Position numbers and translations under genes: made by a program
Origin: Gammaproteobacteria bacterium
GTDB taxonomy: Bacteria; Pseudomonadota; Gammaproteobacteria; Steroidobacterales; Steroidobacteraceae
DNA length: 64,000 bases
NCBI GenBank assembly: GCA_010027845.1
Contig: RGUL01000005.1
Location: forward strand, 1 to 64,000
Direction: 5' to 3'
Shown: piece after piece, positions 24,327-42,042 of the stretch
Position numbering within the stretch: the stretch's first letter is position 1
How the letters are laid out: each line of letters begins with the position of its first letter
The notes under the pieces: model-generated
Database searches by the model: none
What the model was told of the DNA's origin: nothing
Seen by the model: only the letters and a program-made list of their open reading frames with translations

Positions 24327-24350
24327 GTGAGCGCCCGCGCGGGCGGTCAC
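24327..24350. terminator. Candidate bidirectional hairpin between YciI gene and RND pump gene
   Basis: A perfect 14-base palindrome CGCCCGCGCGGGCG (24332-24345), extended by GTGA/TCAC on either side with one mismatch, sits between two convergent genes and overlaps the pump's stop codon. There is no T-tract, so factor-independent termination is uncertain, but position and stability fit a shared terminator stem. Confidence 0.45.
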
Positions 24351-27260: not shown

Positions 27261-28321
27261 GAGCGCGGTTTCGCGACCACCTTGCCGCCGTCGCGTACGC
27301 GCTGCGTGCCCTCGACGATGACGTCGTCGGTGTCGGCGAGCCCTGTAACGATCGCCACTCGACCCGGCTCACGGCCACCGAGCTTCAATTCTTTGCGGAC
27401 CGCTTTGCCGTCGACGACCACGAATACGTAGTTGCGGCCTTGCTCGGGCACTAGTGCTTCTTCGGGCAACAATAAGGTCGGCCGTTGTTTGCCGCGCACT
27501 GTGACCGTCATGAACAGGCCCGGACGCAATGCCCCGTCGGCATTCGGTAAATCGGCGCGTACCGCGATCGAACGCGTCGCCGGATCGATCCGCGAGTCGA
27601 TGGCGGTGATTTTGCCGCGGAACACGCGATCGCCGAGCCCCTCGGTGCGGGCCTCGACGGGTAAGCCGGCCGCGAGTTCCGCGAGAAAAGTTTGCGGTAG
27701 CGTGAATTCGAGTTTGACGCTCGAGGCATCGTCGAGCGTGGTGATCACCGTACCAGGATTCACCAACGAGCCGAGGCTCACGCGACGCAAGCCCGTCGTA
27801 CCGGCGAACGGCGCTCGGATCACCGTGTCGTCGAGCCGCGACCGTGCTGCTGCGACCCGCGCCTCGGCGGTTTTGACGTTGGTCTCGAGTTGGTCGAGTT
27901 GTGCGCGCGACAACGCTTGCGTGACCGATAGGTCGCGACCGCGATTGCGTTGATTGCGGCTCTCGGCCAGCTGCGCTTGTGCTTCGACGAGCGCAGCTTC
28001 GGTTTGCGCGCGATCGAGTTCGACGAGTACCGTGCCCGCTGCGACGCGCTGACCTTCGTTGAATCGGATCGCCGTGATCGTGTTGGCACTTTTGGAGGTG
28101 ATCACCACGGACTCGCGCGCGAGCGCGGTACCGACGGCTTCGAGAGAGCTGCCGAAATCACGGCGCTCGGGACGCACGGTGGCCACTTGGGCGGGTGGCG
28201 GACCGCCACGACCCATGGGTTTGTCGGCCACGTCTTTCGGCTTTTCGCCCTTCGAACAGCCGGCGACGGCCAAAAGCGTCAGAACGAGGGCGGGCAGGGC
28301 GATGCGCAGGCGAACGGGCAT
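27257..28321 (-). CDS. RND efflux periplasmic adaptor lipoprotein
   Basis: Membrane-fusion protein of 354 residues. The signal peptide ends in a lipobox (LLAVAGCSKG), so it should be anchored to the inner membrane by lipid. Then come the lipoyl half (ANTITAIRFNEGQRVAAG), a helical hairpin (about residues 105-165), the second lipoyl half (TVIRAPFAGTTGLRRVSLGS), beta-barrel and membrane-proximal domains. ATG 28321 is chosen for the signal peptide; the frame continues upstream through the 2-hydroxyacid dehydrogenase. A palindrome at 28383 lies 62 bases upstream. No outer-membrane channel gene is adjacent. Confidence 0.92.
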   Translation of the reverse strand: MPVRLRIALPALVLTLLAVAGCSKGEKPKDVADKPMGRGGPPPAQVATVRPERRDFGSSLEAVGTALARESVVITSKSANTITAIRFNEGQRVAAGTVLVELDRAQTEAALVEAQAQLAESRNQRNRGRDLSVTQALSRAQLDQLETNVKTAEARVAAARSRLDDTVIRAPFAGTTGLRRVSLGSLVNPGTVITTLDDASSVKLEFTLPQTFLAELAAGLPVEARTEGLGDRVFRGKITAIDSRIDPATRSIAVRADLPNADGALRPGLFMTVTVRGKQRPTLLLPEEALVPEQGRNYVFVVVDGKAVRKELKLGGREPGRVAIVTGLADTDDVIVEGTQRVRDGGKVVAKPRS

Positions 28322-28382
28322 GGTCGAAATCCGGGGAAAAGTCCCTCGTATCGTGAGGGAGCGATGTTTCATTTTAACGTAA

Positions 28383-28398
28383 TTAACCGTTTGGTTAA
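28383..28398. promoter_or_regulatory. Palindromic operator candidate upstream of the RND operon
   Basis: A perfect inverted repeat TTAACC-GTTT-GGTTAA lies in the AT-rich gap before the adaptor gene. Such palindromes are typical TetR-family repressor sites for efflux operons. No TetR gene is adjacent; the nearest is at 10707-11357, whose own gap contains related AACC/GGTT half-sites. Confidence 0.55.
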
Positions 28399-28419
28399 CG
28401 AATTCCCCGTCAAGGATCG

Positions 28420-29356
28420 TCAAGTGACCCGGCCACGACGGCCTCCGGCTAGAAAATCCCTGACGTTCGCCGCCATTTCGTCCAGGCAACGCTGCCGTGA
28501 TTCGCGCGCCGCCCAGGCGGTATGCGGCGTCACGATCAAATTGGGCAGATCTGGTGCGAACAACGGGCTGCCGTCGACCGTCGATCGCCGCACCGCCGAG
28601 TCGTCCGGCACGCAACGCGCTCGCTAACGCTTCGACGTCAACCAGTGCACCGCGTGCGGTATTGATCAACACCGCGTCGCGTTTCATCAAAGAAATTTCG
28701 CGCGCGCCGATCATGCCGGTGGTGCGTTCGTTCACCGGGCAATGCAGCGTGACCACATCCGCAGTCGCGAGTAATTCGGCGAGCGGCACCCGGCCCTCGA
28801 TATGCGCGGCACCGATACGATCGGCGACGATGACGCGCATGCCGAGCGCCGTTTCACAGGCCTGCGCGACCGCTTTGCCAAGCACACCCCAACCGACGAC
28901 GCCCAGCGTACGCCCGCCGAGTTCGCGGATCGGATGACGCAAAATCGTGAAGTGCGGACTTGAGGCCCAGGTGCCGTCGATGGCATCGCGCGAATAGTCA
29001 GCGAAGCGGTGCGTGAGCGCGAGCAGTACGCCGAGCACGTGTTGCACGACCGACGGCGTGCAATAGTCGCGGATATTGCAGACTGCGACGCCACGTTCAC
29101 GTGCGGCCTCGAGGTCGACGTTGTTCGTGCCGGTCGCTGCGAGCGCGATCAGCCGCAAAGATTTCGCGCCGACGATCAAATCGCGGGTGAGCTTCAGTTT
29201 GTTGAGCAGCACGATTTCGCAATCTGCGATCCGCTCGGCGACTTCGTCTTGGCGCGTCGCGTCGTGCAACACTAGACCCGGCGTCGCGGCTTGCAACGCG
29301 CCCGGATCGAGATCACCGACACTGACGGTCGAATAGTCGAGAAAGACGCTTTTCAA
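28420..29356 (-). pseudogene. D-2-hydroxyacid dehydrogenase, frameshifted
   Basis: NAD-dependent 2-hydroxyacid dehydrogenase (glycerate/hydroxypyruvate reductase-like). The first frame, TTG 29356 to about 28595, covers the catalytic domain (IALAATGTNNVDLEAA) and nucleotide motif GVVGWGVLGKAVA, then NTARGALVDVEALASAL and GRLGGAAID. The rest reads in another frame, VDGSPLFAPDLPNLIVTPH with catalytic His, to the stop at 28420. About seven residues (the VLxxEPP segment) are missing, consistent with loss of about 20 bases near 28593. The TTG start overlaps the MaoC stop. The catalytic Arg and Glu regions are present in the first frame. Confidence 0.85.
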
Positions 29357-29844
29357 AACATCAACCGCATCACGCTTTCTGCGATGCAAGCCGGTTTCGG
29401 TTGCCCGTCGATTTCGGCGGTGTATTGCTCGGTGATTTGTAGTGCATTCGGCGCGACGGCTTCTACTTTGAGGAGCGTGAAACGTCCACGAATGCGAGAG
29501 TCGACGCGCACCGGATTCGGGAAGCGCACTTTATTCAAACCGTAATTAATCACGTTTTTGACGCCCGGCGCCACGGGCGTATCTGACGACACGAGACCGC
29601 GCAACAGCGTGTGCAAAGAAAGTGTGAGATAGCCGTGGGCGATCGGAGCGCCGTATGGCGACTCGCGGCGTGCGCGCTCGACGTCGACGTGGATCCATTG
29701 CGGGTCGCCCGTCGCATCGGCGAACGCGTCGATGCGCGACTGCATGATCGGCTGCCAGTCGCTCAAGTGCACCTCTTGACCGACGCGCGCAGCGAGGGCG
29801 GTCAGAGCCGCCGCCGCCGCGCTCGTCAGGACGATTTCGCTCAC
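29353..29844 (-). CDS. MaoC-like (R)-specific enoyl-CoA hydratase
   Basis: Hot-dog-fold protein of 163 residues. The hydratase motif is clear: FADATGDPQWIHVD with the catalytic Asp and His, followed by APIAHGYLTLSL. It probably hydrates a trans-2-enoyl-CoA. Start and stop both overlap neighbours (ATGA with the nitrilase relative, TTGA with the dehydrogenase), so it sits in the middle of a coupled operon. The actual substrate is unknown. Confidence 0.9.
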   Translation of the reverse strand: MSEIVLTSAAAAALTALAARVGQEVHLSDWQPIMQSRIDAFADATGDPQWIHVDVERARRESPYGAPIAHGYLTLSLHTLLRGLVSSDTPVAPGVKNVINYGLNKVRFPNPVRVDSRIRGRFTLLKVEAVAPNALQITEQYTAEIDGQPKPACIAESVMRLMF

Positions 29845-31019
29845 GATTTTCCGGCCATGCGCTTGCGGACCACCTCACCAGCTTCTTGGTAGTTAGCCGG
29901 TAGTTTTTCGAGGAATGCGTTCGGACCGAACACCGGCTGATATTGCTGCAGTACCGGCAGCAGCAGTGCCATCGGCAGTTCCTGCACGCGACGCGTCTTG
30001 CGGAACGAGGCGATCGGAATCGTCGCCCGCACGATTTCTTCGTGATGATTTTCGGTTTTCGCGAGTACCGTGCCACGCGGATCGACGATCACCGTTCCTT
30101 CGTCGCGTGTACCCGAGCCTTCGGCGAAGCCGATGTTGTCCGGCGACACCGAATTGCCGACGCCCACCGTGTACAGCCGACCCTGACGCGCGGTTTGAAT
30201 CGCCGACTCGGCGTTGCTGCCGCCCGTCACCGAAAGCACGATGATTTCGGCGCCTTTGAGACCGAGGCAGGTGTAGAGCAGCGGTTCGTTGCCTACCGCG
30301 GTGGTCGCAATGTTGCCGATGTCGGTGCGCGCCACGGGCATGGTTGCATCCCAACCGTACATCTCGACATAGCGGTCGAGCACGTCGTAAATCGTAGTGC
30401 CGATCAGCGCACCGTCACCGAACAGGCCCAAAATATTTCGTGCCTTCCATTGCTTACTGACGATGTTGCCGTCCGGACCGACGATCACGGACATGTTGAT
30501 GACGTGATCCGGCCAGTCTTTTTCTTTGGCGTAGCAACCGAAGGAGATGTAACAACCGTAGCGCTTGGCGCGCTCGCCGATCGCGGCGACTTCCGGTCCC
30601 GGCAACTCGAAAGCGATCTGGTTGAGTTCTTTGCGATTCCAAGGTTGAAAGCCCTGCACCGGGAATTCGTGCATGCAGATGAGGTCGACTTTCGAGCCCC
30701 AACGACGTTCGTAATTCCATTCTTCGGGCGAGTTTTGGGCTAGATCGATTAGCCGTAACACGCGATCGAGATTGCGCTTGGTCGTTTTCGCTTTGTCGCG
30801 CAAGTCGATCGACATCAAGCGCGATTGAATCGCCGCGACGTTGATGGTCTCTTGGCGCAGCGGCACCATGTCGTAGACGCCGCGTTTCGAAACGGCGACC
30901 GGCGTGACGGCTGGCGTGGCGGCAGCGACTGGCTCGGATGTCGTCGCTGCTGCGGCGACGCCGACCGCGGCCGCACCCGTGAGCAGCCGACGTCGATCAA
31001 GTTTGGTTTTACCGTTCAT
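29841..31019 (-). CDS. Tat-exported nitrilase-superfamily protein lacking the catalytic Cys
   Basis: The protein is 392 residues. The N-terminus KLDRRRLLTGAAAVG is a twin-arginine signal followed by an Ala-rich stretch. The carbon-nitrogen hydrolase fold is recognisable: Glu118 in MHEFPVQGF, Lys192 in KQWKARN, then GLKGAEIIVLSVTGG. The place of the nucleophilic Cys (normally ICYD or ICDD before this last motif) reads NIATTAVGNEP, with no Cys. So it is an inactive, binding or altered enzyme of the amidase/formamidase branch, if my alignment is right. It overlaps both neighbours by four bases (ATGA). Confidence 0.82.
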   Translation of the reverse strand: MNGKTKLDRRRLLTGAAAVGVAAAATTSEPVAAATPAVTPVAVSKRGVYDMVPLRQETINVAAIQSRLMSIDLRDKAKTTKRNLDRVLRLIDLAQNSPEEWNYERRWGSKVDLICMHEFPVQGFQPWNRKELNQIAFELPGPEVAAIGERAKRYGCYISFGCYAKEKDWPDHVINMSVIVGPDGNIVSKQWKARNILGLFGDGALIGTTIYDVLDRYVEMYGWDATMPVARTDIGNIATTAVGNEPLLYTCLGLKGAEIIVLSVTGGSNAESAIQTARQGRLYTVGVGNSVSPDNIGFAEGSGTRDEGTVIVDPRGTVLAKTENHHEEIVRATIPIASFRKTRRVQELPMALLLPVLQQYQPVFGPNAFLEKLPANYQEAGEVVRKRMAGKS

Positions 31020-32125
31020 TTCTTCCCCCTAGATTGCTTCGGTCCGAGATCGAGTGACGTGACGTCCATGACGTGCAGTTGCAGGCCTTGCATGAAGCCG
31101 ACGCCGGGACCCGCGCTACGCGAACTGGTCCACACCATTTTACGGCCATCTGGCGAGATAGCGGGAAAGCCGTCGAAACCCTCGTCGAACGTGATGCGCT
31201 TCGGCGGCGTCTTACCGTCGAGGTAGCCTAAATAAACTTCCCAATTACGTTGGGTTTCGGCACGTACGAATAAAAAATGCTCGCCGTCGGGTGTCGGATA
31301 AGGTGCCCAGTTCATGTCGTGCGTGAAGGTGCGAGTCTTGCGATCGGTGCCATCTTTCTTGATGGTGTAAATGGTCATCGGCGTCGGCTTGAGATCGTAT
31401 TCCGACGCTTTCCATGCGCGAAAGATGATGGTCTCGTTATCGGGCAGGAAATAGGGTGCGCCTTCTTGATCGTCATCGGTGAAGGTCAGTTGCCGCTCGC
31501 CGGTGCCGTCGGCTTTCATGATCCAAAGATCCATGTTGCCGTCGGTCATGCGACCGAACACGATCCACTTGCCGTCCGGCGATACGGTCACCTCGGCTTC
31601 GTATTGCGTGTTATTGGTCAGGCGCGTGACGTTCTTCCCCTCACGATCGGAGGTGTAAAGCTCCGACCCTTGCGGATAGTTACGCCAATCCGACCAATTG
31701 CCGAGCGGCATGTCGAGATGATCGCGGATCGAAGTCCAGATCAATTTTTTTCCGTCTGGGAAAAAGTACGAGCAAGCATCCCAGCCCTTGTCGTTGATGA
31801 GCACGACGTCGGTGCCGGCGTCGGTGAAAGTTTTGGTCAAAAACCCCGCCAAGCCACGCGGACTTTTGACGGCTAGCGGACTTTTTACTTGTGCGATCAG
31901 ATGCTCGCTGTCCGGGCCGTAATACGATTCGGCGGCTTCGCCGATATTCGGAATCACCCAGGACGGCATCTCGCCCTCTTTGGTCGTGATGGTCACGCCG
32001 CTGGGTGGAACGACCGGCGCCAACCCTTTAGCCGTGACCGATGTCGGTGTCGTGACACCGATCAGCAGCGTGGTCAGCGCCAAAAAGCCTGCACGCCGCG
32101 ATTCTGAATTGCGAACTATTCTCAT
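31016..32125 (-). CDS. Secreted TolB/PD40-type beta-propeller protein
   Basis: The protein is 369 residues with a signal peptide (GFLALTTLLIGVTTPTSVTA). The body is a run of PD40/TolB-like blades: YFFPDGKKLIWTSIRD, VSPDGKWIVFGR, DLWIMKADGTGERQLT, YFLPDNETIIFRAW, YPTPDGEHFLFVR and ISPDGRKMVWTSSR. Such proteins bind partners or substrates in the periplasm. It is the first gene of the minus-strand operon toward the nitrilase relative, and divergent from the TonB-dependent receptor. ATG 32125 is chosen for the signal peptide. Confidence 0.85.
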   Translation of the reverse strand: MRIVRNSESRRAGFLALTTLLIGVTTPTSVTAKGLAPVVPPSGVTITTKEGEMPSWVIPNIGEAAESYYGPDSEHLIAQVKSPLAVKSPRGLAGFLTKTFTDAGTDVVLINDKGWDACSYFFPDGKKLIWTSIRDHLDMPLGNWSDWRNYPQGSELYTSDREGKNVTRLTNNTQYEAEVTVSPDGKWIVFGRMTDGNMDLWIMKADGTGERQLTFTDDDQEGAPYFLPDNETIIFRAWKASEYDLKPTPMTIYTIKKDGTDRKTRTFTHDMNWAPYPTPDGEHFLFVRAETQRNWEVYLGYLDGKTPPKRITFDEGFDGFPAISPDGRKMVWTSSRSAGPGVGFMQGLQLHVMDVTSLDLGPKQSRGKK

Positions 32126-32155
32126 TCCAACCCCCCGCTCATTACGGTCAGTTTT

Positions 32156-32193
32156 GACGTTATGCCGATCCGTCTCTTCCGTCCCGACGTTAT
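32156..32193. promoter_or_regulatory. Direct repeats in the PD40/receptor divergent promoter region
   Basis: Two copies of GACGTTAT (32156-32163 and 32186-32193) lie exactly 30 bases apart, about three helical turns, in the 132-base gap between divergent genes. The second is followed by AG, giving CTATAAC on the minus strand, a plausible -10 box. They could be sites for an activator shared by both operons. Based only on repeat and spacing. Confidence 0.35.
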
Positions 32194-32257
32194 AGCGGGT
32201 AGGTTTGGCATAGCACCTCTCAAAATTCAATACCGGTGCATGACAGGGGAGCACTCC

Positions 32258-34855
32258 ATGAAATCGACTCGAATTCGTTCACACGTGACCGTCGCGGTGC
32301 TGGCATCGCTGGCAACCGGGTTAACGGCTACGACTGCGTACGCCCAGAGCAAAGGCGACGACGGCTTGGCCTTGCAAGAAATCGTCGTCACCGCCCGCAA
32401 GGCGGCAGAGCGACTGCTCGACGTGCCGCTCGCGATCACCGCGATTTCGGCCGAAGCGATCGAACAAAAAGGCATTCGTAACCTCGACGACGTCGCGGCG
32501 GCGACGCCCGGTTTGACCTTTTCGGACGTGCAAGCCGGCTTCTTACCCGTGCCCGTCATTCGCGGTTTCGCGCCGATCGACGTGCGTGGCGAGAACAACG
32601 CGGCAGTGTTCGTCGACGGGGTGTTCGTCTCGGGCAAAGAAGGTTTGAACTTCAATCAAACCGATCTCGAGCGGATCGAAGTCATCAAAGGCCCGCAAGC
32701 TGCGCTCTATGGCCGAAATTCGTTTAGCGGCGCCATCAACTACGTGACCGCAAAGCCGGGCAACGTGGCCAAAGGTAAAGCCGAAGTGCAAGTCGGCTCC
32801 AGCGGCAAGCGCCTAGTGTCCGGTTCCTGGAGCGGCCCGCTGATCGACGGAACGTTAAAAGGGCGTATCGCGATTTCGTACGACAACTTCGATGGTTCGT
32901 ACGACAACCAATACTCCGGGCTCGGGCGCCGCTCCGACATCGGTGGCTACGAATATCAATCGGCGCAGGGCACTCTGTATTGGACGCCCGCTGATTCTTT
33001 CGAAGCGGAACTGCAGGCCTATATCTCCAACGACGTCGTGGGCAACTCCGCGATCAGCCCGGTGACCGCGAACTGCGAAAACACCAATTCTTTGTTGTCG
33101 GTGCAATCACCGGTGCCGGCGGCCGGATACCTCAACTATTGCGGCACGTTTCCGGCCGTTGGTCGCAACGGACTGTCCGCCGTGCCGCAGGCGACCGGCA
33201 ACAAACGTGACATCGAACGCGCCCACTTAAACCTGACTTGGAAGACGGGTTTCGGCACGCTGACGTCGCTCACTGGCTATTCGAAAGTCGGTCAAGGATT
33301 TTTGGTCGACGGCTCGCGCAACTCGGGCGAGACCGTACCGTTCGTGTACATCGCGCGGCCTGCGGCCGGACTCGCGACGCTGGTACCGGGTACGTTCTTC
33401 GGAGGCGAACAAAAGACGATCCGTACCGGCCTCTATCAAATCGGTGGTGGCGGTGTAACCGAGGAGCTCAGCACCGAGCTGCGGCTCTCGAGCAATACCG
33501 ATCAAAAAGCTCGTTGGGCTGTGGGTGGATATTTCTACGAAACCAAAACGCACGGCGGTAACGACGGCGTGCGAGCGACGCAACCGCTGCCGGCCGATTT
33601 CTATGCTTTCTGTCTATCGTGCCGCAGCGCTGCGGCGTTCGGTCGACCGACCTTGATCTACGATCCGGCGAACGATCCCGCTGCGACGGGCGGTGTCGAT
33701 ACGACGGGCTTCAAGAATTGGTTCGTCAATCCGACCGGTGACGCGATCTTCACCGACACGTATCGCAACAAGGTCAATGCCAGTTCGGCGTTCGCTTCGC
33801 TCGAATACGACTTCACCGAGAGCGTGAAGGGTCGTCTCGAGGGTCGCTACACCGACGAAAAGAAAGCGTTCAACAATCTGTTGACGTCACGCACCGGCAG
33901 TAAATCTTGGGGCTTGAAAAACTGGCGTACGACGCTCGATTACAAACCCGATGTCGATACGACGATCTACGGCTCGTTCGCGCACGCCGAAAAGAGCGGT
34001 AACGTCGCCGCTGCGACGGTTCAGTTCGTGTCCGACCCGACCGCCGCGAACGTACCGATCCTCACCGCCTTCGATCCCGAGAAGAACAACGCACTCGAAC
34101 TCGGCATCAAGCACGAATTACTCGATCGTCGCGTCTATCTCGACTTCGATATCTATCAGAGCAAGTGGAAGAACATCGTCATTCCACAAATCCGTACCGA
34201 AGTCGTCGATCCGCGCTCAGGTAATGTCAGCGCGATCCGCTCGCCGACGGCTTTCAACGTCAATGCCGGCGATGCGACGATTCGCGGTGCGGAATTCTCG
34301 GTGAACGCGCGCGTCACGGATCGTGTCGATGGCAGCTTCGGCGTTTCCTACACCGACGCCAAGTACGACCGAGCCCGCGTCGACTCGTTCAAAAACTTCC
34401 CGTCGTTCTCGCCGACCGGCGACATTTCGGGCAAGCAGATTCTGCGTACCTCACCCTGGCAGTTGTCCGCGAGCCTCGGTTACACCGCGCCGCTCGCCGA
34501 CAACAAGGCTTGGTTCGTGCGAGGTGATCTCTCGTATCGGGATAAGCAGTTCGCGGATGCGACCAATGAGGCGATCACGCCCGATCAAACGAAACTCAAT
34601 ATGTCGATCGGTGTGCAAGCAAAGCAGTGGACCGTCGAACTGTGGGGCCGCAACCTCACCAATGAGGATGGCCCGACCGGCGCCTACCGTGACGTCTATT
34701 TCGGCAATGCACTGCCCGACGGCACGTTCTTCCGCACGCCGACCGGCACGACGCCGGCCGGAAGCGGCGGCAAGAGCACGTTCTTTCCGTGGCGTTACAG
34801 CGTTTCGTACCCGACGCTGCGCGAGTTTGGCGTCACCGCGCGCTATAAATTCTGA
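32258..34855 (+). CDS. TonB-dependent outer-membrane receptor
   Basis: The protein is 865 residues. A signal peptide (ASLATGLTATTAYAQ) precedes a plug domain: LQEIVVTARKAAERLLDVPL near the TonB box region, then VPVIRGFAP, VFVDGVFVSG and the ERIEVIKGPQAALYGRN block. The 22-strand barrel ends with GVTARYKF and a terminal Phe, as expected for outer-membrane insertion. AGGGGAG precedes ATG 32258. It belongs to the large group of receptors of unknown ligand common in oligotrophic and degrader proteobacteria. No haem FRAP/NPDL box was seen. The ChaN-PDZ gene starts two bases after its stop. Confidence 0.93.
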   Translation: MKSTRIRSHVTVAVLASLATGLTATTAYAQSKGDDGLALQEIVVTARKAAERLLDVPLAITAISAEAIEQKGIRNLDDVAAATPGLTFSDVQAGFLPVPVIRGFAPIDVRGENNAAVFVDGVFVSGKEGLNFNQTDLERIEVIKGPQAALYGRNSFSGAINYVTAKPGNVAKGKAEVQVGSSGKRLVSGSWSGPLIDGTLKGRIAISYDNFDGSYDNQYSGLGRRSDIGGYEYQSAQGTLYWTPADSFEAELQAYISNDVVGNSAISPVTANCENTNSLLSVQSPVPAAGYLNYCGTFPAVGRNGLSAVPQATGNKRDIERAHLNLTWKTGFGTLTSLTGYSKVGQGFLVDGSRNSGETVPFVYIARPAAGLATLVPGTFFGGEQKTIRTGLYQIGGGGVTEELSTELRLSSNTDQKARWAVGGYFYETKTHGGNDGVRATQPLPADFYAFCLSCRSAAAFGRPTLIYDPANDPAATGGVDTTGFKNWFVNPTGDAIFTDTYRNKVNASSAFASLEYDFTESVKGRLEGRYTDEKKAFNNLLTSRTGSKSWGLKNWRTTLDYKPDVDTTIYGSFAHAEKSGNVAAATVQFVSDPTAANVPILTAFDPEKNNALELGIKHELLDRRVYLDFDIYQSKWKNIVIPQIRTEVVDPRSGNVSAIRSPTAFNVNAGDATIRGAEFSVNARVTDRVDGSFGVSYTDAKYDRARVDSFKNFPSFSPTGDISGKQILRTSPWQLSASLGYTAPLADNKAWFVRGDLSYRDKQFADATNEAITPDQTKLNMSIGVQAKQWTVELWGRNLTNEDGPTGAYRDVYFGNALPDGTFFRTPTGTTPAGSGGKSTFFPWRYSVSYPTLREFGVTARYKF

Positions 34856-34857
34856 TC

Positions 34858-36102
34858 GTGATCCGGCGCGGTCTGTCGACGCGCCGCGTGCTCGCTATCA
34901 CACTGCTCGCCGGTCTGTTGACCGGCGGGCAGTGGGCGATGGCAGAGACCGTGCGGCCGTACGAACATCTGCAAATCGGTGATCCGGCGCGGCGCACTCG
35001 CCTTGCACGAGTTGAGCTCGACACGATCACCGACACCGCCTCGGGCCAGCAGATCGGCGCCGCCGCGCTCGCCGAGAAACTCCGTGACGTGCGTGTGCTG
35101 TTCGTCGGCGAAGAGCACACCAACGGCGAATTTCATCGCGTCCAACTCGCCGCAATCGCTGCGCTGCATGCAGCCGGCCGTAAAGTGATACTCGGTCTAG
35201 AAATGTTTCCGTGGGACCCGCAACCGGCGCTCGACCGCTGGAGTCGCGGCGAACTGACCGAAACGCAATTTCTCGACGAGTCACGTTGGTACGAAGTCTG
35301 GTCACATCACTTCGGCCACTACCGTGAAATCTTCGCCTTCGCGCGCGATAACCGCCTACGTATCGTCGGCTTGAACGCACCGCGCGAGGTGGTGCGCGAC
35401 GTGCGCGCCAAAGGTTTCGATGTGCTCTCCCCGGAGATCCGTAGTCGAATGCCGCCGACCGTCGATCTCGGCAACACCGAACATCGTGCCTTAGTGCAGT
35501 CTTATTTCGATGCCGACGATCCCCTGCACGCGAAAATGACTGCCGAGCAGCAAGAAGGCGTGTACCGCGCACAAGTGGCTTGGGATGCGTCGATGGGTTG
35601 GCAAGCGGGTCAAGCCTTATCAAGCCCGAGTGATCCACGCGAAATTGTCGTCGTGCTGATCGGTGGCGGCCATGTCGCCTATGGTCTCGGCGCCGAGCGT
35701 CAACTGCGTTCAAGCTTCAAAGGCCAAACCGCGACACTGATACCGGTGACGGTTTCCAGTGGTGCGAAGCGAACCGAAGTCAGCGCCGCCTATGCCAATT
35801 TTCTTTGGGGCGTACCGCAAACGGCACAACCGACGTTGCCGGTACTCGGTGTGTCGCTGATGGGCCGCATCGGCAAGGAGCCCACCAAAGTCATTCAAAT
35901 CGAAACGGGCTCCACCGCAGATCTCGCCGGCGTGAAAGTCGGTGACATCTTGCGCGAGCTCGATGGGGCGAAGATCGACGGCACGGCCGCCCTGCAACGC
36001 AAGATCGGAGACTATCGATGGGGCGATTCGGCCAAATTGCGCCTCGAGCGCGACACCCAATCTTTGACGCTACCGATCGATTTCCGTCGTCGTACGGACT
36101 GA
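34858..36102 (+). CDS. Exported ChaN-like protein with C-terminal PDZ domain
   Basis: The protein is 414 residues from GTG 34858, with a signal peptide (VLAITLLAGLLTGGQWAMA). The ChaN/EreA-like domain shows VLFVGEEHTNGEFHRVQL, VILGLEMFPWD, the WYEVWSHHFGHYREIF block and VVLIGGGHVAYGLG. ChaN proteins bind haem or act in iron uptake. The last 90 or so residues form a PDZ domain (GVSLMGRIGKEPTKVIQIETGSTADLAGVKVGD in pieces), typical of proteins that hold peptide ends. It lies tightly between the receptor and the double peptidase. Confidence 0.85.
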   Translation: MIRRGLSTRRVLAITLLAGLLTGGQWAMAETVRPYEHLQIGDPARRTRLARVELDTITDTASGQQIGAAALAEKLRDVRVLFVGEEHTNGEFHRVQLAAIAALHAAGRKVILGLEMFPWDPQPALDRWSRGELTETQFLDESRWYEVWSHHFGHYREIFAFARDNRLRIVGLNAPREVVRDVRAKGFDVLSPEIRSRMPPTVDLGNTEHRALVQSYFDADDPLHAKMTAEQQEGVYRAQVAWDASMGWQAGQALSSPSDPREIVVVLIGGGHVAYGLGAERQLRSSFKGQTATLIPVTVSSGAKRTEVSAAYANFLWGVPQTAQPTLPVLGVSLMGRIGKEPTKVIQIETGSTADLAGVKVGDILRELDGAKIDGTAALQRKIGDYRWGDSAKLRLERDTQSLTLPIDFRRRTD

Positions 36103-39100
36103 TGCGCATCATTCGGCGCACGCTTTGCGCCGCACTCGTTTCATGTTGGGCGGTCGCCGTGCAAGCGGCGGGTGATCCGCACTATTCGCTCACCGCAACG
36201 CTCGAGCCCGCTACCCACGGCCTCACGGTGCAGGCCAGCATCACCTTACCGCCGGCCACCTCGGATCGTGTCATTGAATTTTTACTCGCCGCACCGCTCG
36301 AAATCGTCGCCGCCGAGCCCGCGGTAGAAAAGTTGCCGATCGAGGGAGTACGTGCTTTCGCCGGCATCAACGGCTCTTCTGCGGCGATCGTCGGTACCGG
36401 CCACGCCGCCCGCTATCGAGTACGCGTTGCGGCCGGGGCGACGCGTATCGCTTTGCGTTATCGCGGCGCAATCGACTTCACGTTCGATTCGCCGGCGCAG
36501 GAATACGCGCGCGGGTTCAATGAGACGGCTGGCACGATCCGCAGCGAGGGTGTGTACCTCGCCGGCAGCACCCTTTGGTACCCCTACCTCGGCGAGACCT
36601 TGTTTACGTTCGACTTGGAGGCGCACGGCCCGGACGGTTGGCAGCTCGTGAGCCCGGGCAGCGGCAGTGCGCGCGATGCGTCCGGTCATGCGCGTTGGCG
36701 CAGTACGACGCCGGTCGACGAACTGCACATCGTCGGTGGTGCGCTCACTCGATATTCCCGGCAAGCGGGCGCAGTGAGCGCCGAAGTGTTCCTGCGTCAG
36801 CCCGACGATGCATTGGCGGCGAAATATTTGGAAGCGACTGCGCGTAACCTCGAAATGTATCGCACGCTCATCGGTCCATATCCTTACGAAAAATTCGCTC
36901 TCGTCGAAAATTTTTGGGAGACCGGTTACGGCATGCCGAGCTTCACGTTGCTCGGGTCGCAGATCATCCGGTTTCCGTTCATTCTCACGTCGTCGTACCC
37001 GCACGAAATCCTCCACAACTGGTGGGGTAACGGTGTGTTCGTCGACTATGCGAGCGGTAACTGGTGTGAAGGACTGACGGCATATCTTGCCGACCATCTA
37101 TACAAAGAGCAGCAGGGTCAGGGTGCGGAGTACCGCCGCGATACGCTGAAAAAGTATCGTGATTTCGTGCGCGATGCGCAGGACTTTCCGCTTTCGAAAT
37201 TTCTTTCGCGACACAGTCCGTCCACCGAAGCAGTCGGTTACGGCAAGGCCTTGATGCTCGATCACATGCTACGCCGCAAAGTCGGCGATGCGGCCTACGT
37301 ACGTGGGCTGCAGCGCTTCTATCGTGAACGACGTGGTCAGCGCGCGAGCTTCGACGACCTTGCAAGAGCGCACGGTGCCGCGGCGAACGTCGACTTGCTA
37401 CCGATGGTTTCGCAATGGGTGAACCGTGTCGGCGCTCCCGAACTACGCGTCACCGACGTACGTGTCGCCGCAGTCAAAGACACCGAAAAGTCGGCATATG
37501 TTTTGCGCGGCGTGTTGCGCCAGGTGCAAAACGCTGCGCCGTTCGCAATCGACGTGCCGGTCGTGGTGCGAACCGATCGTGGCGTGCAGCAACACACCAT
37601 TGCCGTACGCGATCGGGTGACGGAGTTCGAATTGCGCAGCGAAACCAAGCCGCTCGCACTCGAAGTTGATCCCGAATTCGACGTCTTTCGTTTCCTCGAT
37701 GCGCGTGAAACGGCACCGTCGCTCAGTCAAATGTTCGGCGATTCGGAAGTTCTCGCGGTGTTGCCGGCGAAGGCTGATGCGGCGACGACTCGAGCGTTAC
37801 GGGGCATGCTCGAGTTTTGGGGCGGTGGTGGCGCGCAAAAAATTCGGACTATCACCGATGTCGAAGCCAAACGATTACCGGCTGATCGAGCCGTATGGAT
37901 TCTCGGCCGCGATAACGCTTTAGCCGCGAACTTGTTTGCGAGCGATGCCGCGACCGGCTACGTAAGCGAACCACAAGGGCTGCGTGTCGGCGGCGAGACC
38001 TTGCCGTTCGCCGGCCGCGCCAATGTCATCGTGCGTCGTCATCCACGAAATCCTGCCAAAGCGGTCGCGTGGGTCACTCTAGATTCGATCGCTGCTGCTG
38101 CGGGACTCGCGCGTAAGTTGCCGCATTACGGTAAGTATTCTTGGCTCGCGTTCGCAGGCGACGAACCCACGAACGTCGCCAAAGGTGAATGGCCCGCTGC
38201 CGATTCGCCGCTGCGGGTCGATTTGCGCGCACTGCAGGAGCGCACGGCGATTTTGCCCATGGCCGGTTATCCGCGACGCGACGCGCTCGCGCGGTTGCCC
38301 GCCGTGTTCGACGATGCGGCCTTAGCGACGCATGTTCGTTGGCTCGCCGATCCGTTGCGCGAGGGTCGTGGTCTCGGTAGCGCAGGATCGGACGCAGCGG
38401 CGACTTACGTTGCCGAGGCGTTCAAAAGAGCCGGGTTGCAACCCGTCGATGCGCAAGGTTGGTTTCAGGATTTCGACTACGCGCCGAGTGGTGCGCAGAA
38501 ATCTTTGCCGCTACGTAACGTCGTCGGTGTGTTACGTGGCAGCAACCCGCAGTATGCGGGTCAGGCGATTATTGTCTCTGCGCACTACGATCATCTGGGT
38601 CGAAATGGACCGGGTGTTCGTGTCGCCGAGATCGGACAAATACACCCTGGAGCCGATGACAACGCGAGCGGTGTCGCCGTGCTGCTCGAATTGGCGCGTG
38701 CGCTCGCCGCCGCCGGCGCACCGGAGCGAACGATTTTGTTCGTCGCATTCGCCGGTGAAGAGGCGGGCTTGCAGGGCTCGAAGTGGTTCGTGGCTCATCC
38801 GCGCGGCGTGCCGCTCGAGGGCATTCGAGCGGTCGTGAACCTCGATACGGTCGGTCGACTCGGTCGCGGAGAATTGTCCGTGCTCGCCACCGGCACGGCG
38901 AGTGAATGGCAGCACGTGTTTCGGGGCATCACTTTCTCGACCGGCATCGCGATCAAAAATATTCCCGGTGCAGCGCAGTCTTCGGACCAACAAAGCTTCA
39001 TCGAACACGGAATTCCCGGTGTGCAACTCTTCACGGCGGCACATCTCGATTATCACCGACCGACCGACACGGCCGACCGCATCGACTTCGACGGTCTGGT

Positions 39101-39485
39101 AAAAGTCGCCACGGTCGCGCGCGAGGCGATCGACTATCTTGCGCAACGTTCCGCGCCACTCACGATCACCATCGAGCGATCGGGTGGTGAAGCTTCAAGT
39201 CCCGCCGCCACCAGTGACCCGCGTCGTGTCTCGTTCGGACTCGTACCCGATTACGCCCATCGAGGTGCCGGCGTGCGTGCTGAATCGGTAGTGCCCGCGT
39301 CCCCGGCAGCCCGCGCCGGTCTCGAAGCGGGCGATCTCGTGTTGTCGCTGGATGGTGTCGCGGTCGAAGGACTCGGCGCGTTTTCGGATGCACTCAAGCA
39401 GCACGGAGCGGGCGATCGCATCGTGACCCGTGTCCGTCGTGGTGCGCGTGACTTCACCGTGACCGTGGAACTCGTCGCACGATGA
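36102..39485 (+). CDS. Exported M1-like / M28 double metallopeptidase with PDZ domain
   Basis: The protein is 1127 residues with a signal peptide (LCAALVSCWAVAVQAAG). The first half is an M1-type gluzincin: HEILH at 301-305 and Glu323 in WCEGLTAY, with GYGMPSFTLLG where classic enzymes have GAMEN. The spacing to the third ligand is 17 residues, one less than classic M1. The second half is an M28 aminopeptidase with both zinc sites: SAHYDHLG (His828, Asp830), GADDNASG, EEAGLQGS, NLDTVGR and HLDYHRPTDT. The last 90 residues are a PDZ domain. The ATG shares a base with the ChaN stop (TGATG). Two peptidase active centres in one polypeptide suggest stepwise peptide digestion in the periplasm. Confidence 0.88.
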   Translation: MRIIRRTLCAALVSCWAVAVQAAGDPHYSLTATLEPATHGLTVQASITLPPATSDRVIEFLLAAPLEIVAAEPAVEKLPIEGVRAFAGINGSSAAIVGTGHAARYRVRVAAGATRIALRYRGAIDFTFDSPAQEYARGFNETAGTIRSEGVYLAGSTLWYPYLGETLFTFDLEAHGPDGWQLVSPGSGSARDASGHARWRSTTPVDELHIVGGALTRYSRQAGAVSAEVFLRQPDDALAAKYLEATARNLEMYRTLIGPYPYEKFALVENFWETGYGMPSFTLLGSQIIRFPFILTSSYPHEILHNWWGNGVFVDYASGNWCEGLTAYLADHLYKEQQGQGAEYRRDTLKKYRDFVRDAQDFPLSKFLSRHSPSTEAVGYGKALMLDHMLRRKVGDAAYVRGLQRFYRERRGQRASFDDLARAHGAAANVDLLPMVSQWVNRVGAPELRVTDVRVAAVKDTEKSAYVLRGVLRQVQNAAPFAIDVPVVVRTDRGVQQHTIAVRDRVTEFELRSETKPLALEVDPEFDVFRFLDARETAPSLSQMFGDSEVLAVLPAKADAATTRALRGMLEFWGGGGAQKIRTITDVEAKRLPADRAVWILGRDNALAANLFASDAATGYVSEPQGLRVGGETLPFAGRANVIVRRHPRNPAKAVAWVTLDSIAAAAGLARKLPHYGKYSWLAFAGDEPTNVAKGEWPAADSPLRVDLRALQERTAILPMAGYPRRDALARLPAVFDDAALATHVRWLADPLREGRGLGSAGSDAAATYVAEAFKRAGLQPVDAQGWFQDFDYAPSGAQKSLPLRNVVGVLRGSNPQYAGQAIIVSAHYDHLGRNGPGVRVAEIGQIHPGADDNASGVAVLLELARALAAAGAPERTILFVAFAGEEAGLQGSKWFVAHPRGVPLEGIRAVVNLDTVGRLGRGELSVLATGTASEWQHVFRGITFSTGIAIKNIPGAAQSSDQQSFIEHGIPGVQLFTAAHLDYHRPTDTADRIDFDGLVKVATVAREAIDYLAQRSAPLTITIERSGGEASSPAATSDPRRVSFGLVPDYAHRGAGVRAESVVPASPAARAGLEAGDLVLSLDGVAVEGLGAFSDALKQHGAGDRIVTRVRRGARDFTVTVELVAR

Positions 39486-39500
39486 GTTAGGCTGCGCGGT

Positions 39501-39659
39501 ATGTCGTTACCGCCGATCGAAGACGTTCGCAGCCTAGTCGAGGTCCGCATTCCGCCGCGTCCGGTGCCGCTGCGCAAACGTTTATTTTGGCGGCTCGTTT
39601 TCGTACTGGTGAAGTTTTCCGCCGGCCGCGCCTTACTTGGGCGCCTCATCGCCCGTTGA
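39501..39659 (+). CDS. Small basic protein, unknown
   Basis: A 52-residue frame between the double peptidase (15 bases upstream) and the permease (12 bases downstream), on the same strand. It is proline-rich at the start (IPPRPVPLRKR), then hydrophobic and basic (LFWRLVFVLVKFSAGRALL), suggesting a membrane-associated amphipathic helix. No family is recognised. The tight operon position and codon use like its neighbours support it, but no clear ribosome site is seen. Confidence 0.45.
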   Translation: MSLPPIEDVRSLVEVRIPPRPVPLRKRLFWRLVFVLVKFSAGRALLGRLIAR

Positions 39660-39671
39660 TCGGAGTTTTCG

Positions 39672-40112
39672 ATGCCTTGGTTACCCGCAGTGCTCACCTT
39701 CGTCGCCGGATCCGGGCTCGTCGTGCAAGTCGCGATGAACATGGCGGTCACCCGTGCCCTCGGTAACGGCGCACTCGCCGTCCTGGTCAATTTTTCGGTC
39801 GGTACGGTGGCGCTCTGTTGTTTGCTGCTCGCGACCCGCACGAATTTGCCGACGCGCGAACAACTGCTTGCGGTGCCGGTTTGGGCCTGGGCCGGCGGTT
39901 TACTCGGCGCCTTATACGTCTCGACTGCGAATTTCGCCGGACCGCGACTCGGCGCGTTGTTGCTGCTGACGCTCGCCGTTTCCGGTCAAATGTTAGCGGC
40001 GATCGTGGTCGACCACTACGGTCTGCTCGGTTACGCCGTACAGCCGGCGAGTCCCCAGCGCCTGATCGGCGCCGCGTTATTGTTGGGCGGTTTGTTGTTG
40101 ATCGCGCGTTGA
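39672..40112 (+). CDS. YdcZ-type (DMT superfamily) small permease
   Basis: The protein is 146 residues with five hydrophobic helices. The family pattern is clear: AVLTFVAGSGLVVQVAMNM at the start, ALAVLVNFSVGTVAL, GGLLGALYVSTANFAGPRLG and the end helix RLIGAALLLGGLLLIAR. YdcZ/DUF606 proteins are half-size drug/metabolite transporters of unknown substrate. A GGAG lies about nine bases before the ATG. The 3' end overlaps the convergent zur gene by 36 bases. Confidence 0.87.
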   Translation: MPWLPAVLTFVAGSGLVVQVAMNMAVTRALGNGALAVLVNFSVGTVALCCLLLATRTNLPTREQLLAVPVWAWAGGLLGALYVSTANFAGPRLGALLLLTLAVSGQMLAAIVVDHYGLLGYAVQPASPQRLIGAALLLGGLLLIAR

Positions 40113-40589
40113 CGCCGCGCAGCGCTCGCAAACACCTTTGACCTCAAGGGTCGCCGGCTCGATACGAAAGCCGAGTTCGCGCGAGCGCGCCGCTAATGCA
40201 CGCCCGATCGCCGAATCGACGATCTCGAGCGCACGATGACATTCACGACAGACGAAGAATTGCGCAACGTGTGCCTGCAGCGGCGTGTCGCAACCCATGA
40301 AAGCGTTCAAAGAATCGATACGATGTACGAGGCCGGCGTCGATGAGAAACTCGAGCGCGCGGTATACGGTCGGCGGCGCTGCTTTGTCACGCTCTTTGGC
40401 GAGTTCTGCGAGGATTTGATACGCACCGATCGGCTCGTGCGCGCGCCAGACGATCTCGAGCACGCGGCGCCGCACTGGTGTCAGGTTCAGGCCGCGCGCG
40501 TTACAGAGCTCGTCTGCGTTGCGCAACGCGACGTCGATGCATGCGTCGTGGTCGTGCGTATGCTGCGTCGCGGATCGCAAATCGGTCAT
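40077..40589 (-). CDS. zur: Zinc uptake regulator Zur (Fur family)
   Basis: The protein is 170 residues. The winged helix (NLTPVRRRVLEIVWRAHEPIGAY, PPTVYRALEFLIDAGLVHRI in pieces) is followed by a dimerisation domain with the structural Zn site as C-R-E-C-H and C-E-R-C, typical of Zur. The N-terminus is His/Asp-rich (THDHDAC). It is divergent, with a 25-base gap, from a CobW-type metal GTPase, supporting zinc rather than iron or peroxide sensing. The gap contains GTTACGTTATCAT, a weak match to a Zur box. Confidence 0.9.
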   Translation of the reverse strand: MTDLRSATQHTHDHDACIDVALRNADELCNARGLNLTPVRRRVLEIVWRAHEPIGAYQILAELAKERDKAAPPTVYRALEFLIDAGLVHRIDSLNAFMGCDTPLQAHVAQFFVCRECHRALEIVDSAIGRALAARSRELGFRIEPATLEVKGVCERCAASTRDQQQTAQQ

Positions 40590-40614
40590 GGGGTTACGTT
40601 ATCATGCCGCCCCT

Positions 40615-42042
40615 ATGGCAACCACGGATCGGGTACCCGTCACCGTCCTGACGGGATTTCTGGGCTCGGGTAAGACCACGCTGCTCAATCGCATCCTCTC
40701 CGAAAATCACGGCAAGCGTATCGCCGTGATCGAGAACGAATTCGGTGAGGTCGGTGTCGACCATCAATTGGTGATCGGTGCCGAGGAAGAGATCTTCGAG
40801 ACTAATAATGGCTGTATTTGCTGCACGGTGCGCGGCGACCTGCTACGCATCCTCGGCCAACTGTTGAAGCGTCGCGACAAGTTCGACTACATCATCGTCG
40901 AGACCACCGGCATGGCCGATCCCGGTCCGGTGGCGCAGACCTTTTTTCTCGACGACGAATTCAAAGATCGGTTTTCGTTGGATGCGATCATCACGCTGGT
41001 CGATGCGCGGCACATCGAAAAACACCTCGACGAGATGCAAGAGCCCGGTGAACAGGTTGCGTTCGCCGACGTCATCCTGCTCAATAAAACCGACCTCGTC
41101 GGTGCCGCCGAACTAGAGCGCATCGAACGCCGCATCCGCGCCATCAACTCGACCGCCAAGCTGCATCGCACCCAACAGGCCGACGTGCCGATCGCCGACG
41201 TGCTCGATGTCGGTGCGTTCGATCTGGAACGAGCACTCGCCGTTGATGCCGATTTTTTGCAGCCGCAATATCCGTTCGAGTGGGCAGGCGCGTATCGACT
41301 GCCCGCTGGACGTCATGCGCTGTGCATCGGTGATGCGCATCATGCGCATGATCATCATGACCATGCACACCATGACCACGCGCATCACGATCACGGTCAT
41401 GATCATCACGACCACGACCATCACGCTCATGCCCACGAGGGCGGGCTCGGCGTGGTGTTACTACCGATCGCTGCGGCCGACGCCACCGCACTCGATGCAG
41501 CGGTCGAAACCGCGGTGCGCGTGTTCGCCGAAGACCCGGTGTCGGTCGCGTGCGAAGGCCAGCTCGCGCCCGGCAACGCGCTCTATCGTATCGACGTCGG
41601 TCACGACGGTGCGCACTTCGATCTCGCGATCGAAAGCTCCGGTGCATATGCGATTTTTTGTGAGCACGCGCCGGCGGAGTTCAACCTACGGATCACCGGC
41701 GCGCAACCGGTCGCCGAGCGGCCGTTCGCATCGCATCACCACGATGAAGAAATTTCCTCGATCGGTTTGACCGACGAGCGTCCGTTGGACGCCAAAAAAG
41801 TGAACGATTGGTTTTCGTACCTGCTGCAGAGTCGCGGCGCAGACATCTTCCGTATGAAAGGTGTGTTGAACATCGCAGGAGAGCCACGCCGTTATGTGTT
41901 CCACGGCGTGCACATGATGTTCGACGGTAAGCTCGAACGGCCGTGGGCCGCGAGCGCTGCGCGCCGTAATACTTTGGTGTTCATCGGCCGCAAGCTCGAT
42001 CGAGCCGAACTCGAGGCGGGTTTCGCCTCTTGCGTGGCGTGA
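40615..42042 (+). CDS. CobW/ZNG1-family zinc metallochaperone GTPase
   Basis: GTP-dependent metal chaperone of the COG0523 group, 475 residues. The Walker A GFLGSGKTTLLN is at the N-terminus, then NEFGEVGVD, the metal-binding CxCC in NGCICCTVRGDL, ETTGMADPGP, and the guanine motif LLNKTDLV. A His/Asp-rich loop separates it from the C-terminal CobW domain (RMKGVLNIAGEPRRYVFHGV). ATG 40615 starts the known N-terminus; the open frame from 40519 overlaps zur. Likely repressed by Zur and used to hand Zn2+ to clients under limitation (inference from family and position). Confidence 0.92.
   Translation: MATTDRVPVTVLTGFLGSGKTTLLNRILSENHGKRIAVIENEFGEVGVDHQLVIGAEEEIFETNNGCICCTVRGDLLRILGQLLKRRDKFDYIIVETTGMADPGPVAQTFFLDDEFKDRFSLDAIITLVDARHIEKHLDEMQEPGEQVAFADVILLNKTDLVGAAELERIERRIRAINSTAKLHRTQQADVPIADVLDVGAFDLERALAVDADFLQPQYPFEWAGAYRLPAGRHALCIGDAHHAHDHHDHAHHDHAHHDHGHDHHDHDHHAHAHEGGLGVVLLPIAAADATALDAAVETAVRVFAEDPVSVACEGQLAPGNALYRIDVGHDGAHFDLAIESSGAYAIFCEHAPAEFNLRITGAQPVAERPFASHHHDEEISSIGLTDERPLDAKKVNDWFSYLLQSRGADIFRMKGVLNIAGEPRRYVFHGVHMMFDGKLERPWAASAARRNTLVFIGRKLDRAELEAGFASCVA
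41332..41439 (+). repeat. His/Asp-rich coding repeat in the CobW GTPase
   Basis: Codes residues 240-275 of the metallochaperone. Of these 36 residues 20 are His and 8 Asp, in HDH and HHDH repeats; the DNA is a run of CAT/CAC and GAT/GAC codons. Similar loops in this family bind several zinc ions. Its length is likely to vary between strains through slippage. Confidence 0.9.

Follow-up and report, generated by a model that had tools for sequence, protein, structure and literature searches.

A candidate envelope peptide-degradation module of PD40, ChaN-PDZ and M1-M28-PDZ proteins in Steroidobacteraceae

Several described systems resemble, in one part or another, the gene cluster analyzed here. 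The tricorn protease, together with its factors F2 and F3, combines a PD40-type propeller, a PDZ domain and an M1 peptidase, and the SusCD/RagAB systems couple TonB-linked uptake of oligomers to subsequent hydrolysis in the envelope. A third case is the ChaN system of Campylobacter jejuni, in which we take Cj0177 to be ChaN, and where to our knowledge there is no PDZ domain on ChaN, no M1-M28 protein and no PD40 protein. In that organism a gene for a TonB-dependent receptor (TBDR) is known beside ChaN (Cj0177-Cj0178; PMC6338021, PMC11123243). PDZ families named "ChaN" (DUF399) and "ZEP" (Zn-dependent exopeptidase) appear in the accessible part of PMC6411480 as single architectures, uncharacterized. 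The cluster examined here lies in the first 64,000 nucleotides of contig RGUL01000005.1 (hereafter the window) of the assembly GCA_010027845.1 from a gammaproteobacterium of the Steroidobacteraceae, and encodes a PD40 propeller, a TBDR, a ChaN-PDZ protein and an M1-M28-PDZ double peptidase.

Comparison of this cluster across genomes leads us to propose, as an evenly balanced judgement, that the PD40, ChaN-PDZ and M1-M28-PDZ proteins form a periplasmic module for peptide degradation in the envelope, built on an older pair of ChaN and M1 and fed through TBDR import in this lineage. Signal-like N-termini, recognizable domains, intact catalytic residues, co-occurrence, adjacency and joint gain or loss support it. 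All the parts are of known kinds, and the set of ChaN, double peptidase and propeller genes is widely conserved and apparently undescribed: neither the ChaN and M1 pair, nor the M1-M28-PDZ fusion, nor the link to PD40 was found in the literature searched, which lay mostly outside subscription journals. The source is a metagenome-assembled genome (MAG) of 2.6 Mb in 182 contigs, 91% complete, whose nearest relatives in the named collection are MAGs labelled Steroidobacteraceae, Nevskiaceae or Gammaproteobacteria.

The ChaN and M1 pair, its fusion to M28 and the PD40 propeller

The genes at the center of the analysis are the following (aa, amino acids).

31016..32254, minus strand: PD40 (TolB-like) propeller protein, putatively exported (PF07676, 9e-30); core partner
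32258..34855, plus strand: TBDR of 865 aa (Plug domain PF07715, 2e-19); lineage-level partner
34858..36102, plus strand: ChaN-PDZ protein of 414 aa, putatively exported, GTG start (PF04187, 9e-55, and PDZ_2)
36102..39485, plus strand: M1-(middle part)-M28-PDZ double peptidase of 1127 aa, putatively exported, ATG at 36102 (PF01433; PF04389, 2e-44; PDZ_2)

The coordinates of the last three genes agreed with the initial annotation, as did their joins (a 2-base gap between TBDR and ChaN-PDZ, a 1-base overlap between ChaN-PDZ and M1-M28-PDZ), and Pfam searches found PDZ_2 in both soluble proteins, as had been claimed. Every gene named in that annotation was present; its list had left out PD40, a core partner, and the downstream genes for a Zur-like regulator and a CobW-type GTPase. 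The PD40 gene is divergent from that of the TBDR, with its most likely start at the ATG at 32125, and a signal-like stretch was seen by eye at the N-terminus of the PD40, TBDR, ChaN-PDZ and M1-M28-PDZ proteins.

A sample of 275 genomes of the class, taken to be Gammaproteobacteria, covering 216 genera, was searched for ChaN (E up to 1e-20) and for the M1 type of the window, marked by a GYGMPS motif (E up to 1e-40). ChaN was found in 54 genomes, this M1 in 45, and both in 41, against 8.8 expected (Fisher test, p = 1e-32). In 25 of those 41 the two genes lay at most 1.5 kb apart, in three they were farther apart on one contig, and in 13 they occupied separate contigs. Twenty class loci were read, picked from the 54 ChaN-positive genomes among the better-scoring ones with long contigs; the M1 gene adjoined ChaN in 12 of them, in either orientation.

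A second collection was centered on ChaN itself, by scanning genome contigs with a 10-row ChaN-PDZ alignment. It yielded 55 loci, 51 of which were kept (L054-L104), the Mucilaginibacter loci L105-L108 (27-30%) being excluded from the counts. In 23 loci ChaN was followed, at no more than 0.6 kb and on the same strand, by an M1 or M1-M28 gene; in five more such a gene lay within 6 kb (28/51), and of 22 further genomes lacking a nearby M1, 11 had a copy elsewhere (at least 49% identity). This search for distant copies covered 27 genomes, including five rearranged ones, and was positive in 16; it left out L103, which represents the second part of a locus already counted as L059 (a 406-base overlap at 98% identity). 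Closer to the window, full-length ChaN-PDZ was present in 10 and M1-M28 in 12 of 60 near genomes (our own included), some as pieces on separate contigs. All 10 genomes with ChaN-PDZ also held M1-M28, and in the two that had M1-M28 without ChaN-PDZ (G012, G013) the contig breaks off within the M1-M28 gene or a short way upstream.

In our assessment the conserved unit is ChaN paired with an unusual M1 peptidase, a pair that would be older than the fusion. The operon as drawn, from TBDR to permease, was rejected in that role, its downstream genes being restricted to the genus. Of what was first described, the exported proteolytic set with its PDZ domains and its link to a TBDR recurs far beyond close relatives. 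Two class genomes, G128 and G220, had the fused M1-M28-PDZ and PD40 with ChaN missing at the cut-off. The locus L070, on a contig binned as Poribacteria, shares its flanking genes with the gammaproteobacterial locus L067 and may be mis-binned.

Among the 45 M1-positive class genomes, 12 had frames longer than 1000 aa, all with M1, M28 and PDZ parts, and G325, cut at a contig end, also had M28, bringing the fused genomes to 13; the remaining 32 frames were shorter than 850 aa. A tree of 34 M1 domains placed all 23 fused ones on the same side of a single branch (98/96), which fits one fusion event onto the pair; the deep part of this tree is unsure, with long branches.

The propeller followed the fusion. 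A standalone PD40 relative (E up to 1e-30) occurred in eight of the 275 class genomes, all of them fused (8/13 versus 0/262; p = 2e-12). Two genomes with long multi-domain PD40 hits (G249, G315) were not counted as standalone; taken as failures, they change the comparison to 8/13 versus 2/262 (p = 8e-11). The PD40 gene was at the same locus in our own genome, G128, G229, G273 and G332, and on another contig in G177, G220 and G351. In a ninth genome, G355, M1-M28 is immediately preceded by a PD40 fragment of 90 aa, at a contig end, and immediately followed by a gene with a weak ChaN domain. PD40 was near ChaN in 17 of the 51 loci. Within the genus, PD40 and ChaN/M1-M28 were jointly present or jointly absent in 11 of 11 syntenic loci (p = 0.002), so they were gained or lost together, though PD40 sits beyond the receptor. 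PD40 stood beside the TBDR in each of the six genus loci that hold the module and could be read (window, G006, G016, G010, G003 and G013); in G013 the ChaN gene was lost at the contig end and only M1-M28 is visible. PD40 is best regarded as a core partner of the ChaN/M1-M28 set. At L065:7359-8813 and L068:7361-8797, an amidohydrolase gene (PF01979) was found immediately upstream of PD40-ChaN.

Catalytic sites and the haem question

In the M1 domain, residues H301, E302, H305, E323 and Y380 were invariant in 20 aligned rows, leaving the HExxH...E zinc site and the catalytic Tyr intact. Where the GxMEN exopeptidase motif is expected the window protein reads GYGMPS, with variants in relatives, and 17 residues separate the second His of HExxH from E323. 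In PepN there are 18 residues between HExxH and the Glu. The metal ligands of the M28 domain (H828, D852, E886, E887, D915 and H985; H-D-EE-D-H) were likewise invariant in 20 rows. In a structure model, the M28 part matched BSAP (Z 29.5, 257 residues aligned, root-mean-square deviation (rmsd) 2.6) and the M1 part matched ERAP1/PepN; the model is weak at the M1 site, its predicted local distance difference test (pLDDT) score being below 50 at 270-302. The middle part of the protein (about 540-724) had no Pfam match. The fused protein should combine one ordinary aminopeptidase half, M28, with one unusual M1 half. Of the two enzymes claimed to digest from the end, sequence thus suggests such action for M28 only, GxMEN being missing from M1.

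The ChaN domain was matched over its full length (PF04187, 1-213 of 213), and E85, H87, E115 and H272 did not vary among 10 close rows, nor in another set of 11 rows that included six new, divergent ones. According to the accessible part of PMC6254334, Tiki enzymes have a 2His/2Glu site, with the pair H85/E113 in Bcr135. The spacing of H87 and E115 (28) equals that of the Bcr135 pair, and E85-x-H87 and H272 complete the 2His/2Glu site. By this site ChaN-PDZ fits the Tiki superfamily and is a candidate hydrolase. Its structure model (pLDDT 84) matched the C. jejuni ChaN structure 2g5g (Z 23.5, rmsd 2.9, 242 residues aligned) and Ere-type proteins at Z of about 13-14, a level that HtrA chains also reach through the PDZ part.

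The match to 2g5g, a haem-bound structure, bears on a different account, put forward in the initial annotation, in which the TBDR imports a haemoprotein fragment, the peptidases free the haem and ChaN binds it. Tyr is presumably the haem ligand in C. jejuni ChaN; of the six Tyr that 2g5g has within the aligned region, the window ChaN keeps none, at about 15% identity and with an uncertain alignment. Neither HemS nor a PF01126 haem oxygenase was found in the MAG (91% complete), and inspection by eye upstream of the TBDR showed no Fur-like box in common. The receptor itself fell far under the cut-offs of the haem-receptor models, as it did for all other listed models, so that none of these gave it a substrate class. 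On the other side, Cj0178 (the TBDR gene) and Cj0177 are co-induced and listed as iron-uptake genes in the accessible parts of PMC6338021 and PMC11123243. Taking these together, we consider scavenging of haem or haemoproteins very unlikely, and the haem part of the initial annotation was not borne out.

The receptor and the case for envelope quality control

A TBDR of the window's subfamily (above 600 bits) stood beside ChaN in 19 of the 51 loci. The MAG holds 32 plug domains, so chance adjacency of a TBDR would amount to a few per cent per locus. Fast divergence of the receptor was considered and rejected, the relatives beside ChaN being 37-87% identical. In the 60 relatives (our own genome included) the subfamily, at above 790 bits, was present in 16, 10 with the module and six without; G038 has the TBDR on another contig and retains the rest of the set. 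In the class-wide profile search of the 275 genomes, with at most three candidates scored in each, the subfamily was found in our own genome only. Two TBDRs of about 1600 aa, directly after ChaN-PDZ at L068:11580-16481 and L094:11211-15992, have a 700-aa N-terminal part with Ig- and cadherin-like domains.

Under the degradation reading, the TBDR, where present, would bring an oligopeptide or peptide-like compound across the outer membrane, and the PD40 propeller and PDZ domains may hold or position it. ChaN, with its Tiki-type hydrolase site and here cutting peptides instead of binding haem, and the non-standard M1 domain would make the first cuts, after which the M28 domain would trim N-terminal residues and the products would pass inward via general inner-membrane transporters; this order of steps is likewise conjectural.

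Several observations weigh against this proposal, most of all against its import step. No class locus among the 20 that were read had the TBDR subfamily beside ChaN, and five genus genomes (G001, G007, G014, G019 and G023) keep the genus locus with the TBDR, over a span that takes in at minimum everything between the genes for the membrane fusion protein and WD40, with no PD40, ChaN or M1-M28 there; ChaN-PDZ and M1-M28 were missing genome-wide in these five, and PD40 was sought at the locus only. Because the receptor is thus absent from the class loci and is retained in genus genomes that lack the module, the link to import is the weakest part of the proposal. With GxMEN missing and a 17-residue spacing, M1 may differ from standard M1 enzymes in specificity. 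C. jejuni ChaN shows the same 2His/2Glu motif and 2g5g is, by its title, a haem complex, so the motif alone cannot tell a hydrolase from a haem binder. The pairing also has exceptions: four class genomes hold M1 without ChaN at the cut-off, one being G355, where a weak ChaN-domain gene adjoins M1-M28, and 13 hold ChaN without M1. In 11 of the 22 genomes without a nearby M1, ChaN-PDZ had no close M1 anywhere, 10 of these 11 being Acidobacteriota. Finally, the genome searches scored just the first few candidates per genome, and kinship inflates the co-occurrence statistics.

The receptor is best described as separable from the module, a lineage-level, optional partner. What was first annotated as a proteolytic, exported PDZ set linked to a TBDR therefore stands as to the set and the link and falls as to the TBDR being a fixed part, since it is kept without the module in five genus genomes.

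The strongest rival is envelope quality control, because in the class at large the pair is found with no such TBDR and the PDZ domains resemble those of HtrA proteases. The pair would then clear envelope proteins or peptides that are misfolded or in surplus, its HtrA-like PDZ domains recognizing C-terminal tails and the TBDR being a neighbor or client rather than a substrate importer. The PDZ domain of ChaN matches those of DegP/DegQ and that of M1-M28 matches HtrA-type models, 12 of the 20 class loci lacking the receptor hold ChaN and M1, and several ChaN relatives look like lipoproteins by eye. House-keeping, however, would need neither the added M28 exopeptidase nor the recurrence of one TBDR subfamily beside ChaN, and the patchy presence of the module within one genus suits a dispensable trait. 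We judge quality control unlikely, with an appreciable chance of being right.

A broader proposal, which we offer tentatively and rate as a serious but somewhat improbable possibility, is that PDZ-bearing ChaN proteins are Tiki-type peptidases that form with the GxMEN-less M1 an undescribed envelope pair, reaching from Gammaproteobacteria into Acidobacteriota, and that one clade fused M28-PDZ to it, added PD40 and took on a TonB receptor, to yield a periplasmic machine of tricorn-like parts feeding on imported peptides. Pfam labels ChaN (PF04187) as an uptake family that binds haem, and the sole solved ChaN found is a haem complex; the pairing with M1 in 41 of 275 genomes suggests that much of the family acts in proteolysis. 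If so, lineages known here from MAGs only would be credited with a module for peptide degradation, whether or not a TonB receptor accompanies it.

Neighboring genes and comparison with described systems

The genes flanking the module in the window are listed below.

29841..31019, minus strand: carbon-nitrogen hydrolase, Tat-type and putatively exported (PF00795, 2e-14; twin-arginine N-terminus by eye); genus-level neighbor
39501..39659, plus strand: basic protein of 52 aa with one hydrophobic stretch, relatives in seven genus loci; genus-level neighbor, outside the module
39672..40112, plus strand: YdcZ-type drug/metabolite transporter (DMT) permease (PF04657, DMT_YdcZ, 1e-34); genus-level neighbor
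40077..40589, minus strand: Zur-like Fur-family regulator (PF01475; NCBIfam Zur model at 9e-29, below the cut-off of that model); genus-level neighbor
40615..42042, plus strand: CobW/COG0523-type GTPase (PF02492, PF07683), conserved TTACGTTATCAT ahead of the gene; genus-level neighbor

The carbon-nitrogen hydrolase frame overlaps that of PD40 by 4 bases; this gene was found in three of the 51 loci, all in the window's genus, and is kept in five genus loci without the module. The YdcZ, Zur and CobW genes were also confined to three loci, all of this genus, and stay together in genus genomes that lack the module. The permease, described as half-size, matches positions 2-140 of the 140 of its model, a normal length for the family, and neither it nor the tiny protein could be upheld as a part of the system, since both follow the module in the genus only. 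Relatives of the 52-aa protein (35-69% identity) were directly beside YdcZ in six of their seven genus loci and were not found in loci of other genera; the frame is probably a real small protein.

With the Zur-like and CobW genes lying, in the genus, 0.6-1.1 kb beyond the downstream end of the module, a zinc locus was considered, in which the two zinc peptidases, the Zur-like regulator and the COG0523 GTPase would respond to zinc together and the TBDR would import a peptide or chelate that carries zinc. In the gap that separates Zur-like from CobW gene (window 40590-40614; L042, L043, L044, L048, L050 and L053), five of seven sequences have TTACGTTATCAT and the other two (L048, L053) have TTAAGTTATCAT in its place; this element is a possible Zur site. 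No conserved copy of it was seen by eye in the TBDR upstream regions, where two ACGTTAT matches occurred in the window only; this, and the persistence of the three genes without the module in a single genus, make the zinc account highly improbable.

Farther upstream, an RND (resistance-nodulation-division, AcrB-type) pump gene at 24347-27260 on the minus strand is split into two overlapping frames (26394-27260 and 24347-26686), and the window thus carries a frame shift; the frame at the same position is unbroken, at more than 600 aa, in L210 and L212. Next to it, at 27257-29389 on the minus strand, a 710-aa frame joins a 2-hydroxyacid dehydrogenase to an HlyD-type membrane fusion protein. These are separate frames in L210-L214, and the window version is either a real fusion or an assembly slip.

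Set against the described systems, the cluster is only partly covered by any of them. Its TBDR scored 59.6 bits with the SusC/RagA model, whose cut-off is 368.25, and no SusD-like protein was identified among the neighbors scanned. With C. jejuni ChaN/ChaR it shares the ChaN fold and the TBDR gene adjoining chaN; the Tyr residues of that ChaN are not kept in the low-identity alignment, and no sign of iron control was seen by eye. The two PDZ families of PMC6411480 have, like the window, PDZ joined to ChaN and PDZ joined to M28; the accessible part of that paper shows neither the gene pair nor the M1-M28-PDZ fusion nor a link to PD40. Unlike tricorn, the TBDR, ChaN-PDZ, M1-M28-PDZ and PD40 proteins have no S41 domain by Pfam, and the window proteins look exported; the likeness to tricorn lies in the kinds of parts, and extends to their working by analogy only.

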